IMG/VR virus record: IMGVR_UViG_3300025122_000135
Location: 1 to 25,754 of that record
Reading direction: 5' to 3' (one strand)
DNA: 25,754 nucleotides
Source: a virus
The notes under the pieces: model-generated
Told to the model about the DNA's origin: nothing
The model's input: only the letters and a program-made list of their open reading frames with translations
Database searches by the model: none
In this document: in pieces, positions 17,244-25,754 of the stretch
Numbering within the stretch: the stretch's first letter is position 1
Layout: each line of letters begins with the position of its first letter
Translations under genes and position numbers: made by a program

Positions 17244-20200
17244 ATGTCAGTTGTTAGTTTCAATTGGGGCAACACCGCCTATTATAAAATCGACCAACGC
17301 GTGGGCATTATGTCAGCGGACGCCGCGGACGGTGGCTCTGGCATTCCCGCCACCCGAGCCCGGGCAAGACAGTTTGCTCTCTCGGACCTTGCTGGTCTGC
17401 GCGCGCCTAACTATCAGGGATCAGCTGACAACATATGGCATCCCGAAGAGCTGGAGATCGTGGAAGAGGACACCGGCGCCTTGGCCCAATCGACCGGCTA
17501 CTATAATGTTACTTATCGCATCCCTAGGCTAGCTGCTGATGCGGCTTCTCAGCAGCCCCATGTCCTTAATAACGAACTCCGACCTGTGCCGATCCCCGAG
17601 CCCACCGGTGCAGACAACAAAGCTGCCATCGTGGCTAACTGCCCTGACCGCGCAGCATTCGCTATTCATGATGGTAAATACAAAGTTACTGTCGTAGTCG
17701 ACAACGCAGACAGTTCTTCGCATAAGAAGGCGTGGGCAGCCGCATGCCTGCAGATGGCCAACGCCTTCGCTCCGGAACGCGCCCCCGGGAACCACGTGGA
17801 AGCTTTCCACGGCGACCCGGAGATTCCGAACGGCACATATGTGGGCACTCCCGGATCCCCCGGAGTCTTTATCGACGCAAACGACAACGCGCTGCTCTCC
17901 TCGTTTTCTGCGACCGGGATTCACGGCTTCGACGTCGCCGGCGGATCCTGCCGGTTGCCCGAAACCACAACGGACGGCAAGGGGTGGAGCCAAACAGGAA
18001 AGTATATTGCAACCTTCGCGGTTGGAGTGAACAATGTAATAACCGCAAATGTGATACCTGGAGACCCCGCGGCTGCAGCTGCAGGGGAAGACCCAAGCGA
18101 GACTGGACCAGCTGGAGAAGACCCAAGCGAGACTGGACCCGCCGGCGAAACCTCTCCGGACGCTCCCCCCTCCGCACCAGCAACTGCCAACCCTGACGCG
18201 CCGCCTGGTGTGGAAGAGAGCACAGGCAATTATATAATTACGGTTATAGTGCCGGAGGGTGAAGATCCAAAGGAAGCGGCAAAAGATCAGCTGGCGAAAT
18301 ATGTTACTGACTCCTCCCGTGCCCGGGCCTCTAACATCAACGTTGATGGTACCCTTGAACCGCTGAGTTCCGATCCGGCCGGCGGCAGCGGGGATGTTAA
18401 CGGGAAAAAAATTCTTATCATGGGTGACAGTCAGTGGCACGGAACCGCGCTGGGTAAAGCCGTCAAGGAGAGCCTCGAGGCTAAAGGCGCCGAGGTTCGA
18501 ACCTTGTGGAAATATGGCAAGGGAGCCGCAGTCGCTGCCAGCTACTGGGGGATCACAGTCAACAGCAGTACGGGCAACATCAGTGTAAGTTCTAGTGGAT
18601 TGCTGGGATCCATGCTCAGCAGTTTCAGTCCCGAGATTGTTATTATAGGTTTGGGTGGTAATGATTCGTACGGATGGAACAATAAGAAGGAAAAATATAA
18701 AAAAGTATTAGAGGGGTGGATTACTGCCTTTAAGGACGCAGGAGTTGAAGAAGTTCGCTGGCTAGGTCCCTCCTATGCTACCAATCTAATGTCTAACGGA
18801 CGGTCTTACGATACAATTCGTCAAAAGATCCGTGAACACCAGCAGGAATATCTGACCTCCTCCCCGGTCGCCGGGATACGAACTACTTGGACAGATACGG
18901 TCCCCCTCACCAGAGATCTCGAACGTAAAGATGATGGCGTCCACTATGTAAGAGGAGCGGCGGGTTATGAGGCGTGGGGAGAACTTATGACCTCCGAGTC
19001 CGGACCCCTCGGAGATTTGATGTCCGGTAGCGCTGCCGGCTCTACCCGCGTTCAATATGCAGTTCCAATCCAAAAGGTACAGGTAACGTCGAAGCCCCCC
19101 AAAGGAGGCACCGGATACGAACCACCACCAGCCGCGCCGCCTCCGGATGGCGAAGAGGAAGGCGACGACAGCACGAAGGCACCAGCAGAAATTAATTTAG
19201 AGCCCCTCGATTTCCAGTGTGTGTTGATGCAAAACATTCGTCAATTAGCAGCGAAGCATCAGTCTGTAGAATATCTTCATAACAAGCGACTTACTAGTGA
19301 TAATCCGGGCAACGTGTTGTCTATCATTAATCATGGAAACATGACAGATGAAGTGAGAGAGTTGCTCAGCATGTGTCCCGAAATATATGGATCGCTAACT
19401 CCATTTCTTAAGATCTGGCGCGTAGAATATGACGATAAGGGCAACGTATTAAAGAATTCTGATGGAACCCCTAAAGAGAAGGAGTTACGAATTCCTAACT
19501 TTGTTTCTGAACATGATGTGGAAGATATTTTGGCCGGCCGACGGAGTAGAATTTCTGGTGCGGGGCTCAAAAGGTTTTCTTGGGAGCTAAAAGGTGTCCA
19601 GCCAGCCGAGGTGGATAACAACATCACGGCCAAGTTAGAAATCTATTTCCAATCAGTGGGAGATTTTTTTGGAGGAGCCGAGCAAGCCGGCGGAAACGTT
19701 CCTAACTTCTTAGATTTAATAATCAACTCCCCAGCCGTGCGAAAAGTAAAAGATAAAAGCGGCACGGGAAGCCAATCCCCCAGCGGCAAGCCGCGAAAAT
19801 GCGGAGGCGGCGCAGCTGCCTCTAACCAATATGACGGAGCAAACTTTAGAATTAAAGTGTGTGCCGGGTGGGCTGCCCCGGAAGATATGGAAAGCATGTT
19901 CCCCACAATGCCGCCAGCTAAAATTAAGCTTCTGCGGGAAGCCGTCATGGCTTCGCGAGCTTCCTTGTTTTTGCAACAGGTGCGCCACAATATTCAATTT
20001 AATGAAAACGGCTCACTACTGTTAAGCATTGACTATCATGCGGCTCTGACCGGCATGCTCCGCGGCACCTCGGCCGATATATTTGCCGACGGCAAGCAAA
20101 AGGATGACATTAAAAAGCTTCGCGACGACAAGCGCAACAATGATCAAGAAGCCGCCGATGAAGATACCAGCGACGACAAGAAGAAGGAGCTCGACTCGGA

Positions 20201-21791
20201 TACGGACGATTTGCTGAAAAAGATTGATAAACTTGAACAAGCCGATAAACTACAAAAGTATAGAATGCTTCTCAAAGGACTCTTTGCTAGTGATAAAGTT
20301 ATGATTTTGGAACTCCCGGCCGCAGAGGTGTATACGAAGGGTATCGATGATATGACTCACGAAGAGAGAGTTAAATTTGCTCGTGAACGGCAGTCTTCGA
20401 CGTATCTCTCTGGCGAGAAACTCCGAGGAGGCGCCTTCGAATCTTCAACTCTCGATGCCCTCTCCGACGAGGACGACCTCGAGGACGCGGCAAAAAAGGC
20501 CGACAAAGCTGGGTCAAAGAAGGCGAAGCAGGCGACGAAGAAAGTCAGAAAAGCGAAGAAGAAGGACACAGTTGAAATTCCGTTTATGTATCTGGGAGAT
20601 ATCCTTGATAATGTAATAAACCAAATTAGAACCAACAACGCCGCCCCCCTTAACTTTGCATTTTTTGTTTCTGAAGTAGAACTAATCGATCCCTTGGTAG
20701 CATATCAGGTTAAAGATTTTGCTGACTACGCGGCATGCGGAAACGTAAAAGATACTTATGTCTTAAATGCCATGGAAGCGGCCACTCCCGGTATTACGTT
20801 GAAGGGCTCCGAAGGACTCCTATTAGAGATAAATATTGGTGACATTCCTATCTCCTTGGATGCATTCCAGAAGTGGTTTACTGATAAGGTAATTAAAAAG
20901 AGTCTTGATCACTACTATTTTTTGAATTTCATCAAGGATATTAGCTCACAGCTTATTTCCAATTCTCTTAAATCTCGCTGTTTCGGTAAAAAATATAAAT
21001 TTTTTCAACGATTTGATGCACAGCCAATAAACCTAGGCGGCGCCGCCGAGTTGAAGCCGAAGAAGCTTGTCTCGGACAAAAAGTTAGCTAGTTACAAGAG
21101 AAAGCTCACGTGCGAATCGTCTGCTGGCGAGAGCCTGCTGTCCATTGTATTGATGTCAACTGATACTAAACCAAAATCTTTACGAGGAGACTTTGAACAA
21201 GATTTAGAAAACGGTATTTATCATAACTACATTGGATCTTCGTGCGGACTGGTTAAAAAGATTAATTTTAATCGCGAAGATATGCCTTATATGCGGGAAT
21301 CTAAAATACAAAAACAGGGCGCCCTAGGTGCTGCTCAGCTGAGAGAATTATATTCTGTGGACGTTGATCTAGTGGGAAACAATCTCTACCGCAACGGGTC
21401 TTACATCTATGTCAGCCCTCTTTTGCTGGATACGACCATGGCCGAATTAGAGTTTTTGGGTTTGCATGGATATTATATGGTGACTAGTGTAGGCTCTGAG
21501 GTGACCGAGACATCCTTCACCACAAAGATTAAGGCCCTCCACGAAGGGGTGAAATTCCAGACCACCAAGTTGGGGTCGACCACTCAACCAGCCGCAACCC
21601 CCGAGCCGTCGGATAATCCAGAAAAAGAAAAGGACGATCAGACCGCGCCCCCGCCGGCGACCACTGGCCCGTCGACTAATCCACCTGAGAGTGAATCGAC
21701 TCCCCTCGAACAGATTAATGCTGGCTTGAAGGCGGCAGGGAAGCCACCAATCACCAAAGAGCAAGCGAAGGCTCTGCAGGGGCTGCTCTAA
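17244..21791 (+). CDS. Giant baseplate hub-like protein with embedded SGNH/GDSL hydrolase domain
   Basis: A 1515-residue protein. Residues 1-350 carry four GxY strand-start repeats (about 84, 143, 251, 327) and a Pro/Glu/Ala linker with a tandem repeat. Residues about 388-585 form an SGNH hydrolase: GDS with Ser396 in MGDSQWHG, the GGND block with Asn473, and Asp564-x-x-His567 in DDGVHYV, all catalytic blocks in the right order and spacing. After a Pro-rich linker, residues from 650 on form a long hub-like region with LPFLKIW-type strands, a Lys/Glu-rich coiled stretch (about 948-1110), GDILDNVINQI, and IPISLDAFQKWF, ending in a Pro/Thr-rich tail. Its position with baseplate genes suggests a hub or tail-tip protein that carries an envelope-degrading esterase, analogous to the lysozyme domain in T4 gp5. 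The substrate is unknown. Confidence 0.75.
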   Translation: MSVVSFNWGNTAYYKIDQRVGIMSADAADGGSGIPATRARARQFALSDLAGLRAPNYQGSADNIWHPEELEIVEEDTGALAQSTGYYNVTYRIPRLAADAASQQPHVLNNELRPVPIPEPTGADNKAAIVANCPDRAAFAIHDGKYKVTVVVDNADSSSHKKAWAAACLQMANAFAPERAPGNHVEAFHGDPEIPNGTYVGTPGSPGVFIDANDNALLSSFSATGIHGFDVAGGSCRLPETTTDGKGWSQTGKYIATFAVGVNNVITANVIPGDPAAAAAGEDPSETGPAGEDPSETGPAGETSPDAPPSAPATANPDAPPGVEESTGNYIITVIVPEGEDPKEAAKDQLAKYVTDSSRARASNINVDGTLEPLSSDPAGGSGDVNGKKILIMGDSQWHGTALGKAVKESLEAKGAEVRTLWKYGKGAAVAASYWGITVNSSTGNISVSSSGLLGSMLSSFSPEIVIIGLGGNDSYGWNNKKEKYKKVLEGWITAFKDAGVEEVRWLGPSYATNLMSNGRSYDTIRQKIREHQQEYLTSSPVAGIRTTWTDTVPLTRDLERKDDGVHYVRGAAGYEAWGELMTSESGPLGDLMSGSAAGSTRVQYAVPIQKVQVTSKPPKGGTGYEPPPAAPPPDGEEEGDDSTKAPAEINLEPLDFQCVLMQNIRQLAAKHQSVEYLHNKRLTSDNPGNVLSIINHGNMTDEVRELLSMCPEIYGSLTPFLKIWRVEYDDKGNVLKNSDGTPKEKELRIPNFVSEHDVEDILAGRRSRISGAGLKRFSWELKGVQPAEVDNNITAKLEIYFQSVGDFFGGAEQAGGNVPNFLDLIINSPAVRKVKDKSGTGSQSPSGKPRKCGGGAAASNQYDGANFRIKVCAGWAAPEDMESMFPTMPPAKIKLLREAVMASRASLFLQQVRHNIQFNENGSLLLSIDYHAALTGMLRGTSADIFADGKQKDDIKKLRDDKRNNDQEAADEDTSDDKKKELDSDTDDLLKKIDKLEQADKLQKYRMLLKGLFASDKVMILELPAAEVYTKGIDDMTHEERVKFARERQSSTYLSGEKLRGGAFESSTLDALSDEDDLEDAAKKADKAGSKKAKQATKKVRKAKKKDTVEIPFMYLGDILDNVINQIRTNNAAPLNFAFFVSEVELIDPLVAYQVKDFADYAACGNVKDTYVLNAMEAATPGITLKGSEGLLLEINIGDIPISLDAFQKWFTDKVIKKSLDHYYFLNFIKDISSQLISNSLKSRCFGKKYKFFQRFDAQPINLGGAAELKPKKLVSDKKLASYKRKLTCESSAGESLLSIVLMSTDTKPKSLRGDFEQDLENGIYHNYIGSSCGLVKKINFNREDMPYMRESKIQKQGALGAAQLRELYSVDVDLVGNNLYRNGSYIYVSPLLLDTTMAELEFLGLHGYYMVTSVGSEVTETSFTTKIKALHEGVKFQTTKLGSTTQPAATPEPSDNPEKEKDDQTAPPPATTGPSTNPPESESTPLEQINAGLKAAGKPPITKEQAKALQGLL
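18087..18146 (+). repeat. 30-base tandem repeat in the hub-like gene linker
   Basis: Two nearly identical 30-base units beginning GAAGACCCAAGCGAG encode EDPSETGPAG twice. They lie in the Pro/Glu-rich linker just upstream of the SGNH domain, suggesting a flexible spacer whose length can vary. Confidence 0.9.
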
Positions 21792-23122: not shown

Positions 23123-24310
23123 ATGTTATTTCAGGTGTTGGATTCTAAGTCTGACTGTGTTGGGTATTTTGCCGACAATAGTATAACTTCGACATCCCAG
23201 CTCCCAGAGAGTGGCAGCACGTGGGAGTACTCCTCCCATCTTCCCGGTGAACACTACAAGATAGGACGCATCTACAGCCAAGGAGCGACGATTACAGACG
23301 TTTGTCCGGAAGATATGAGGGAGGACTGGGAAAAGATCAAGAAGACGCTTAGAGCGTGTCTCAAGTCCTTTAGAACCGCCCGTCTTTCATTGGATGAAAA
23401 CTGCTTATATGATGCAGTGCCCGAATACTTCCTTTTTCAATACCTGGAGGCCAAGAATAAGATCACACAGCACGTGCTGGACACAATCCCCTGTCCAGCC
23501 AATTATGATTTTATGTATAATCTGGTTGAGATGCTCTCGGACATTCGTTCTCGCGAATTGAGTGTAAGTGTTGGACCCATTCGACATCTCCTGAGTTCTG
23601 TGCGAGGACTTAACTTCCATCGCACCCTCCAGACCGTGAAACACACGTGTGACTATAACCCATGGGGCACCGTCACGGGCCGCTTGTCCACAAATCCCAA
23701 TAGCTTTCCTATTCTCACGATGAACAAGGAGTTCCGCGCGTGTATTAAACCAAAGAACGACTGGCTGGTGGAGCTTGACTTTAATGCAGCCGAGTTGAGG
23801 GTGTTGCTCGCCCTCGCTGGTGTAGAGCAACCAAAGAACGACATTCATAACTGGAATGTTGAGAACATTTTCGACGGCAAGCTGACCCGGGAAGAAGCCA
23901 AAGTGAAAACCTTCGCGTGGCTGTACTCTAGTAAGGAAAACAAGCAGTTAGAGAGTCTTTATAACAAGGATTTAGTACGAAATAAGTACTGGGATGGCTG
24001 TAAAATTGAGACAGATTATGGTAGAATAATAGAGAACGTAGACGAGCATCATGCTCTCAATTACGTCGTTCAAAGTACCACGATTGATATGGTGCATGAA
24101 CAGGCTTACAAAATCTATGAGCTTTTGAAGGGGAGGAAGAGCCATATCGCATTTCTTATTCACGATGCAGTATATATCGACCTCGCCGACGAAGATCGAA
24201 ATGAGTTGCTGAATTTGCTTGACACGTTCCAGAAGACAAGGTATGATGTATTCAAGGTTAATGTCTCCGCCGGAAGGAACCTCGGAGAAATGAAGGAACT
24301 CAAACTATGA
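23123..24310 (+). CDS. Compact family A DNA polymerase
   Basis: A 395-residue protein with the polymerase motifs of family A in order: TGRLS (185-189), motif A LDFNAAELR with Asp219 and Glu224, motif B Arg256-x3-Lys260-x3-Phe264-x3-Tyr268 with exact family spacing, Asn313-x3-Gln317 (NYVVQSTT), and motif C His347-Asp348-Ala349. It adds nucleotides to DNA in the host cell. Motif C has Ala where Pol I has Glu, and motif A-to-B and B-to-C distances are shorter than in Pol I, so the fingers are trimmed. There is no room for a 3'-5' exonuclease. T4 uses a family B enzyme, so this is unusual in a T4-like phage. A strong GGGGGAGA site precedes the ATG; the stop overlaps the next start by 4 bases. Confidence 0.82.
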   Translation: MLFQVLDSKSDCVGYFADNSITSTSQLPESGSTWEYSSHLPGEHYKIGRIYSQGATITDVCPEDMREDWEKIKKTLRACLKSFRTARLSLDENCLYDAVPEYFLFQYLEAKNKITQHVLDTIPCPANYDFMYNLVEMLSDIRSRELSVSVGPIRHLLSSVRGLNFHRTLQTVKHTCDYNPWGTVTGRLSTNPNSFPILTMNKEFRACIKPKNDWLVELDFNAAELRVLLALAGVEQPKNDIHNWNVENIFDGKLTREEAKVKTFAWLYSSKENKQLESLYNKDLVRNKYWDGCKIETDYGRIIENVDEHHALNYVVQSTTIDMVHEQAYKIYELLKGRKSHIAFLIHDAVYIDLADEDRNELLNLLDTFQKTRYDVFKVNVSAGRNLGEMKELKL

Positions 24311-24624
24311 AGAAGATCTATCAAAAGTTAATCAGGGATCGTATCCCTGGAGTGATTGCAGACGCAGGCAAGTCCTTTGCCACAAGAAAAGCATCAGAAA
24401 CAGAGCTGATGGGCTACGCTATGAAGAAGCTTCAAGAGGAAGTGCAAGAATTTATCGAAGAACCCAGCGCAGAAGAGGCTGGCGACATTATGGAGATCTT
24501 TCATTTTATCTGCGATAAACTAGAGATCAAAGATCTTACGATTGAGGCCGAGCAGACCGCAAAGCGTGTTTCACGCGGCGGATTCGACAAGGGTCTCATT
24601 TTGGAGTGGGTTGAAGAGGAATGA
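24307..24624 (+). CDS. MazG-like nucleotide pyrophosphohydrolase
   Basis: A 105-residue protein of the MazG/phosphoribosyl-ATP pyrophosphohydrolase superfamily. It begins YQKLIRDRIPGVI (from residue 5), as in short MazG-like proteins, and has the metal-binding pattern Glu44-Glu45-x-x-Glu48 (EEVQEF) and Glu57-x-x-Asp60 (EAGD), then a helix with IFHFICD and a final RGGFDKGLILEWVEEE. Such enzymes hydrolyse nucleoside triphosphates to monophosphates and pyrophosphate, cleaning modified nucleotides or changing the nucleotide pool; phages often carry them. It overlaps both neighbours by 4 bases (ATGA-type), so it is translated as part of the polymerase operon. The substrate cannot be read from the sequence. 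Confidence 0.85.
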   Translation: MKKIYQKLIRDRIPGVIADAGKSFATRKASETELMGYAMKKLQEEVQEFIEEPSAEEAGDIMEIFHFICDKLEIKDLTIEAEQTAKRVSRGGFDKGLILEWVEEE

Positions 24625-25475
24625 AAGTAGTTGGTCTCGGCAACGCCGGCTGCAAGCTGGCCAAAGCATTTTCTAAATTTCCTCAATATGAGGCGATTAG
24701 TATCGATGTTCATAAGGATGCCACAATAACAATTAAAAAAAGAAACTCTCATGAGGAATACGACACACACTTTCCTAATCTAAAGAAGAAGCTACGTTTT
24801 TCTAACGAGGATGTGTTGGTGGTTACTGCCGGCGCGGGACAGATATCAGGAGGCATCCTTCGCCTCCTTGAACAACTAAAGAATAATAGAGTGTCATTGT
24901 TATACATTCAGTCAGACCTCTCGCTCATCAGCGAGGTCCAGAAGCGCCAAGATAAAATAGTAAAAAATATTTTACAAGAGTATGCTCGTAGTGGCCTCTT
25001 AGAAATGATATATCTAATAGATGATCTCCGAGTACAGCAGAGTATAGGAGAAATGTCTATCATTGGATACTATGATACCATCAATCAGGCGATTGTAAAC
25101 ACGCTTCATATGGTAAATATTTTCAAACATAGCGAGCCCATCATAGGCAATTTTATAAATCCATCGGAGATTAGTCGAATTGCTACATTTGGAGTAGCGA
25201 ACCTGGATGAAGACGGCGCCCAAGAAAATTGGTTTTACCCCTTGACAAACGTTCGTGACATGGTATACTACTATGGTATTAATGAGGAAGACCTAAAGAA
25301 TGATGGAACGCTTTTTCGGAAGATTACAGACTTCGTGAAGTCCAAAGCGACAAGCGGTGTTAGTGTATCGTACGGAATATATCAGACCACCTATGATCAG
25401 AAATATTGTTATTGCATTCAGTATTCATCTGTGGTACAATCATATACAGAACTAGACGATCAAGAGATTAGTTGA
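24621..25475 (+). CDS. Divergent tubulin/FtsZ-like GTPase-fold protein
   Basis: A 284-residue protein with the layout of FtsZ and tubulins. Residues 1-11 (MKVVGLGNAGC) match the first nucleotide loop. VLVVTAGAGQISGG (65-78) aligns with the Gly-rich T4 loop, but with fewer glycines than GGGTGTG. After a strand (VSLLYIQSD) come helices and a DDLRV segment at 134-138 in place of the FtsZ asparagine-Asp loop, and a long helix YYDTINQAIVNTLHMV. GNFINPSEIS (166-175) aligns with the T7 loop; the usual catalytic aspartates seem replaced by Ser. It is shorter than FtsZ (about 320-380) and lacks a clear C-terminal tail. It may form filaments, cap host FtsZ, or be a non-hydrolysing relative; function is unknown. 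It overlaps the MazG-like gene by 4 bases. Confidence 0.65.
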   Translation: MKVVGLGNAGCKLAKAFSKFPQYEAISIDVHKDATITIKKRNSHEEYDTHFPNLKKKLRFSNEDVLVVTAGAGQISGGILRLLEQLKNNRVSLLYIQSDLSLISEVQKRQDKIVKNILQEYARSGLLEMIYLIDDLRVQQSIGEMSIIGYYDTINQAIVNTLHMVNIFKHSEPIIGNFINPSEISRIATFGVANLDEDGAQENWFYPLTNVRDMVYYYGINEEDLKNDGTLFRKITDFVKSKATSGVSVSYGIYQTTYDQKYCYCIQYSSVVQSYTELDDQEIS

Positions 25476-25508
25476 TCGTACTTTAACCCAACTATAAGGA
25501 GATAAAAA

Positions 25509-25754
25509 ATGGGTATTAACTTAGACAAGATGAGAGAAAAGCTCTCGTCACTACGCGGAGAAGGAAACTCCTCAAATGACACATTCTGGCGCCCCGAGGA
25601 CGGGGACCAGACTATTCGAATCGTTCCGACAGCGGACGGAGACCCTTTCAAGGAAATGTGGTTTCACTACAATGTCGAAAAGGGCGGTTTCCTATGTCCC
25701 AAGCGAAACTACAGCGACGAGTGTCCTGTATGTGAGTTCGCCTCACAGTTGTGG
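25509..25754 (+). CDS. gp32: Single-stranded DNA-binding protein (gp32-like), N-terminal part
   Basis: Starts at ATG 25509 after an AAGGAGA site and runs open to the window end, giving 82 residues. The first part has MGINLDKMREKLSSLR, then FWRPEDGDQTIRIVP, the gp32 entry strand. His53, Cys63, Cys72 and Cys75 (in FLCPKR and ECPVCEF) reproduce the H-C-C-C zinc-binding module of T4 gp32 (His64, Cys77, Cys87, Cys90) with similar spacing. It coats single-stranded DNA during replication, recombination and repair, working with the polymerase encoded just upstream. The C-terminal acidic domain lies outside the window. It follows the tubulin-like gene after a 33-base gap. Confidence 0.9.
   Translation, partial: MGINLDKMREKLSSLRGEGNSSNDTFWRPEDGDQTIRIVPTADGDPFKEMWFHYNVEKGGFLCPKRNYSDECPVCEFASQLW

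Follow-up and report, generated by a model that had tools for sequence, protein, structure and literature searches.

Most of what is known of phage tubulins comes from jumbo phages and Bacillales elements, in which they act as GTP-driven filaments. Within the open-access literature on phage tubulins, beyond which an earlier mention is possible, just the jumbo-phage PhuZ and the plasmid TubZ are described, and tubulin goes unmentioned in a paper on Far-T4 genomes. PhuZ is a phage tubulin that centres DNA (PMC4244570). Far-T4-like phages themselves were recently reported to have high turnover in coastal seawater and a putative link to Flavobacteriales (PMC13037479). Here we describe a tubulin-like gene, termed pseudo-tubulin, carried by a 25,754-base virus record that is called the window below.

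A tubulin-like gene in the Far-T4 replication operon

The gene lies among three neighbours on the same strand:

23123-24310, + strand: family A DNA polymerase (polA), 395 aa; Pfam DNA_pol_A 1.6e-15; conserved upstream partner
24307-24624, + strand: MazG/phosphoribosyl-ATP-pyrophosphohydrolase-like small protein; identity by sequence inspection, no significant Pfam match
24621-25475, + strand: pseudo-tubulin gene, 284 aa, probably of the TubZ branch; open reading frame, alignments A1 and A4, AlphaFold2 models, fold searches, TubZ profile match
25509-25754, + strand: gp32-type SSB, cut by the window end; PHROG 1192 3.7e-9, Pfam gp32 below its cut-off

The reading frame is intact, with the coordinates, strand and length first noted. 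Its start sits inside the stop of the MazG-like gene (ATGA overlap), which likewise overlaps polA by ATGA, and gp32 begins 33 bases after the pseudo-tubulin stop. When 2.9 million viral contigs were scanned, the single-sequence query recovered 86 relatives confirmed by tblastn, and a profile recovered 321. The gene is real and under strong purifying selection, with dN/dS of about 0.04-0.12 in close pairs. Two alignments are used below, one of 46 close family members (A1) and one of 45 diverse members with 29-68% identity to the window protein (A4).

The family has gone unrecognised. The single sequence gave no usable match in Pfam, PHROGs, the PDB (phmmer) or 50,697 phage records (tblastn), two distant members likewise matched none of the phage records, and the family is found in no phage isolate record searched and in no protein family library (Pfam, PHROGs, NCBIfam). 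No relatives came either from scanning 84,980 cellular genomes twice with family-specific peptide patterns, which a very distant host gene could escape.

Synteny was counted over 160 distinct loci, each denominator comprising the loci with room for the neighbour in question. polA lies within 1.5 kb upstream of the pseudo-tubulin in 108 of 110 loci and gp32 lies downstream in 121 of 124, whereas the MazG-like gene is less tightly linked (76/110). Where gp32 was the only means of locating a contig, the pseudo-tubulin was present in 62 of 64. Farther along the operon come RecA/UvsX, a gene that by eye resembles an exonuclease, a DnaB-type helicase and ribonucleotide reductase. The record has T4-type structural genes, gp23 and gp18 indicating a T4-like phage, and its gp23 is nearer to RM378 and other Far-T4 members than to T4, the best matches being Microcystis phage Mel-JY01, an uncultured 484-kb phage, Flavobacterium phage immuto and RM378. 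The original prediction of a gene in the replication operon of a T4-like phage is thereby upheld and narrowed to the Far-T4 kind: the pseudo-tubulin is a core replication-operon gene of a large, uncultivated marine Far-T4 group. Six contigs of 112-194 kb have exactly one copy each, and the gene is absent from the Far-T4 relatives RM378, immuto and Mel-JY01 and from two huge phages.

Some other genes merit separate mention. The window polA, only 395 aa long, has HDA instead of HDE in motif C and has no tblastn match in the 50,697 phage records. Before gp32 in Mel-JY01 (L155, 6598-7884), an S-adenosylmethionine lyase-like protein (Pfam 4.4e-10) replaces the tubulin. At another locus (L131, 18743-19664), small genes that by eye resemble IscA, IscU and GroES follow ribonucleotide reductase. 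A 1515-aa tail protein in the window (17244-21791) contains, again by eye, an apparent SGNH/GDSL-hydrolase-like stretch (KILIMGDSQWHG...).

Predicted fold, affinity and nucleotide site

AlphaFold2 with A1 produced a model of the window protein (pLDDT 88.6, pTM 0.88), and a second family member (locus L253), 32% identical to the first, was modelled with the same fold (pLDDT 92.3). Both models, which are of monomers, have two domains in the manner of tubulin, helix H7 standing between the nucleotide-binding and C-terminal domains and being followed by the T7 loop, strand S7, a short hairpin, S8, H10, S9 and S10; helices H8 and H9 of FtsZ/TubZ form in neither. The best PDB matches of the window model in Foldseek were FtsZ (1fsz, E 1.8e-11) and TubZ, and VIA-align gave Z scores of 23.6 against CetZ (257 residues, 3.3 Å), 21.9 against both TubZ and FtsZ and 20.8 against tubulin. 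The L253 model scored 24.1 against CetZ and 23.2 against TubZ. The protein is almost certainly a member of the tubulin superfamily. An NAD-type Rossmann enzyme of unrelated fold might have been suspected from Pfam TrkA_N, which matches 32 of the 46 close members (best 1.5e-5), presumably via the N-terminal GxGxxG, but both models superpose on tubulin over their full length and a PanE control aligns over just 13 residues. We consider such an enzyme extremely improbable and reject the TrkA_N identity on the predicted fold and the PanE control.

Sequence profiles place the family more narrowly. Pfam Tubulin (PF00091) reached 0.011 at best, in two family members, and exceeded its cut-off in 0/15 records, while the same search detected tubulin in 13/14 control genomes. 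A search of 177,635 PDB sequences with the A4 profile ranked TubZ of Bacillus cereus at the top, with an E-value of 0.0015 and an alignment that runs from T4 to T7, and matched neither FtsZ nor tubulin. Of the tubulin families compared by hhalign, TubZ is the closest at 97.4% (196 columns; E 1.3e-11, an E-value for one comparison), PhuZ gives a weak N-terminal match (64%, 97 columns) and FtsZ is at noise level (0.9%) with a profile that is thin yet finds TubZ at 99.6% and PhuZ at 96.4%. The TubZ profile scored 73-88, whereas none of its 30 column-shuffled versions exceeded 18.4, reversed profiles reached about 16 and PanE 18. Through the TubZ match the family is homologous to a recognised tubulin-superfamily family. 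Its affinity probably lies on the TubZ side. A sequence tree with FtsZ, TubZ and PhuZ would be unreliable because identities are 10-18%.

The bacterial FtsZ profile (NCBIfam TIGR00065) likewise scored 0.04 at best, and the C-terminal tail differs from the FtsZ peptide. These results bear on the possibility that the protein is an FtsZ antagonist, capping or co-assembling with host FtsZ and blocking division. Damage to one longitudinal face of the tubulin fold would be in keeping with a capping role. However, the FtsZ profile similarity is at noise level, the C-terminal peptide of FtsZ is missing, the operon context is replication and not early host takeover, and the known phage FtsZ inhibitors are small unrelated proteins. 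Because H8 is lost and similarity to FtsZ is lacking, we regard this as the weaker reading, and a highly unlikely one.

The nucleotide-site elements, numbered on the window protein, are as follows:

24633-24656, + strand: T1 loop GLGNAGCK, residues 5-12; G5 and G7 near invariant (A4 column counts)
24828-24854, + strand: T4 glycine loop AGAGQISGG, residues 70-78; degenerate relative to GGGTGTG of FtsZ/TubZ
25020-25025, + strand: presumed T6 guanine-contact position, residues 134-135; N in 41/45 members, D135 in the window
25068-25127, + strand: core helix H7, residues 150-169; Y150 and N155 kept in 41/45
25146-25181, + strand: T7 loop GNFINPSEISRI, residues 176-187; first catalytic acid lost, no H8 modelled

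The T6 and H7 residues we take to be guanine contacts from established FtsZ/tubulin knowledge and the profile alignment, as opposed to a bound structure. Q119, R123 and S124 are invariant in A4 (n=45). The T4 loop reads GAGxISGG in the close clade, is poorer in distant members and is lost in some (VVGSSYSSNYSL), and the signature [SAG]GGTG[SAT]G is not kept in the family. Nor is the T7 motif NxDxx[DE]: the first acid is not conserved, whereas the second is E or D in 32/45 members, an assignment uncertain by one residue in the alignment. As judged from the alignments, the base pocket appears mostly kept and the phosphate loop and first catalytic acid gone.

The sequence-based expectations with which this work began can be weighed here. 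The loop and helix order of a divergent tubulin/FtsZ-like fold is confirmed by the models and structure searches, and the degenerate glycine-rich loop stands as predicted, while the particular link to FtsZ gives way to TubZ. That the T7 aspartates appear to be Ser holds in that the first acid is absent but fails near the second, where the window protein has the acidic E183. The proposal of a non-hydrolysing protein draws its support from motif loss. On these grounds GTPase activity is probably impaired, although the second T7 acid in 32/45 members makes residual catalysis possible. Because changes reach H8 as well as the catalytic acid and the glycine loop, GTP would not be hydrolysed through the normal inter-subunit mechanism.

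A working cytomotive filament, which would bind GTP, polymerise head to tail and move or centre phage DNA as TubZ and PhuZ filaments do, must be set against this pattern. TubZ is the closest family, the guanine pocket residues are mostly kept, and PhuZ sets a precedent for DNA centring. Against such a filament, the GGGTGTG loop is degenerate across the family and absent from some members, the first T7 acid has gone, neither model has H8 or H9, and the upstream gene is polA or MazG instead of one resembling TubR. We consider a working filament unlikely.

A putative gp32 control region inside the gene

The last third of the pseudo-tubulin gene overlaps a putative gp32 control region of candidate promoters and a covarying hairpin:

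25242-25269, + strand: promoter-like TTGACA-16-TATACT with TGG before the second hexamer; codons 208-217, synonymous variation suppressed
25412-25440, + strand: second promoter-like site, TTGCAT-17-TACAAT, read by eye; codons 264-274, synonymous variation suppressed
25456-25488, + strand: gp32 leader hairpin ACGATCAA-GAGATTAG-TTGATCGT with conserved ACTTTAACC; covariation, model match 45.1 bits

In a codon analysis of A1, synonymous variation was suppressed at 22 of 185 testable positions, all within three blocks (codons 202-219, 261-274 and 279-283) that coincide with the two promoter-like sites and the leader hairpin. Several distant viruses have a promoter-like site 40-80 bases before the gp32 start instead of inside the tubulin gene. 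The hairpin proper (25456-25479) has 8 bp, a GANATTNG loop and the 3' element ACTNTARCC; it lies about 29 bases before the gp32 start and holds the pseudo-tubulin stop codon in its 3' stem. Distant viruses have the hairpin wholly between the genes, with different stems. Across 33 leaders (A10), all 8 of the 8 pairs have substitutions on both sides. Pairing holds in 100% of 264 cells, compared with 27-51% in slid positions, the former value being inflated by the choice of hairpins on pairing score and the 3' ACTNTA element. The hairpin model finds one strong gp32-leader copy in four of the six large contigs and weak matches in the fifth and in the sixth (L247). No Rfam family matched at its cut-off, and a loop-to-3'-flank pseudoknot sought by eye was not consistently supported.

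A stem change of CAG to TAG, accompanied by CTG to CTA, creates an earlier stop at seven loci (L020, L025, L034, L035, L036, L038 and L114), and in several viruses it shortens the pseudo-tubulin by four residues. At these loci RNA structure appears to override the protein tail. We rejected a protein-level explanation for the conserved DDQDIS tail, its codons being frozen by the RNA hairpin; C-terminal conservation, which in the close subclade is in part due to overlapping DNA- and RNA-level control elements, makes the tail no evidence of protein function.

The leader pseudoknot of T4 gene 32 represses translation of its own gene and overlaps the preceding reading frame (PMC535899). The present leader is alike in being structured, in lying 5' of the gp32 ribosome site and in overlapping the end of the preceding frame, and differs in being a simple 8-bp hairpin with its own loop and 3' element. 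By analogy with T4, a putative autogenous SSB operator is a reasonable inference.

Possible role and comparison with known tubulins

We propose that a shortened tubulin of the TubZ branch has become fixed in the Far-T4 replication operon as a hydrolysis-impaired static scaffold or adaptor, and put the probability of this explanation as a whole at about one half. The protein may still bind guanine nucleotide, or the pocket may be kept for structural reasons; conservation of the guanine-contact positions speaks against a purely structural role, which would not require it. As a static, non-dynamic oligomer or adaptor it would hold or place PolA, the gp32 SSB and replicating DNA, and would not push DNA as a dynamic filament does. 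Tubulins with a mutated T7 acid tend toward static filaments, and this, with the motif and H8 losses, leads us to favour a static scaffold or adaptor over a filament, a sensor or an FtsZ antagonist. Taken by itself, the scaffold or adaptor role falls a little short of even odds; synteny with polA and gp32 shows co-expression at most, not physical interaction.

A non-polymerising sensor of guanine nucleotides (GTP, ppGpp or dGTP), or a replisome cofactor acting on PolA or SSB, would also suit the tight polA/gp32 linkage, the nearby ribonucleotide reductase gene and a base pocket kept beside degenerate phosphate and catalytic loops. Six large contigs from the clade gave no T4-type clamp (PF02916) over the cut-off, which would be in keeping with such a cofactor, but this is a weak point since the model barely responds in controls. 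Such a sensor or cofactor seems quite unlikely.

Hundreds of marine Far-T4 contigs have a reduced, probably non-hydrolysing tubulin as a core gene of the replication operon, and a family unrecognised by Pfam, PHROGs and NCBIfam now has a name. Its occurrence raises the question of whether a tubulin fold can serve DNA replication without GTP-driven dynamics. It is a tentative and rather doubtful proposition that in Far-T4 phages, which are of ordinary size, the replication site is organised by a static scaffold of a tubulin independent of GTP hydrolysis; if true, it would extend tubulin-based intracellular organisation beyond nucleus-forming jumbo phages and imply recruitment of a tubulin as a replisome component.

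Among described proteins, the best viral structural match is A0A6J5RW92, an FtsZ-like protein of an uncultured Caudovirales phage (TM 0.76 on query, E 2.6e-11), which is longer (452 aa) and only 14% identical. CetZ and FtsZ give the highest structural Z scores (23.6 and 21.9), but the pseudo-tubulin differs from FtsZ in lacking H8 and the C-terminal peptide as well as the signature motif and the first T7 acid, and it has no profile similarity to FtsZ. PhuZ (phiKZ gp39, of nucleus-forming jumbo phages) is, as here, a short phage-borne tubulin fold (327 aa), yet belongs to another phage lineage and keeps more of the glycine loop and the T7 DxxD. In contrast to TubZ, the pseudo-tubulin lacks GGGTGTG, NxDxx[DE] and modelled H8 and H9, has 284 aa and a short tail where the TubZ proteins compared have 376-451 aa and an extended C-terminal region, and is preceded by polA or MazG in place of a tubR-like gene. 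TubZ/RepX of Bacillales plasmids and gp138 of Bacillus phage G are nevertheless its best profile match, over the N-terminal domain, H7 and T7, and TubZ and the pseudo-tubulin are alike in their core fold and in their carriage by mobile elements.
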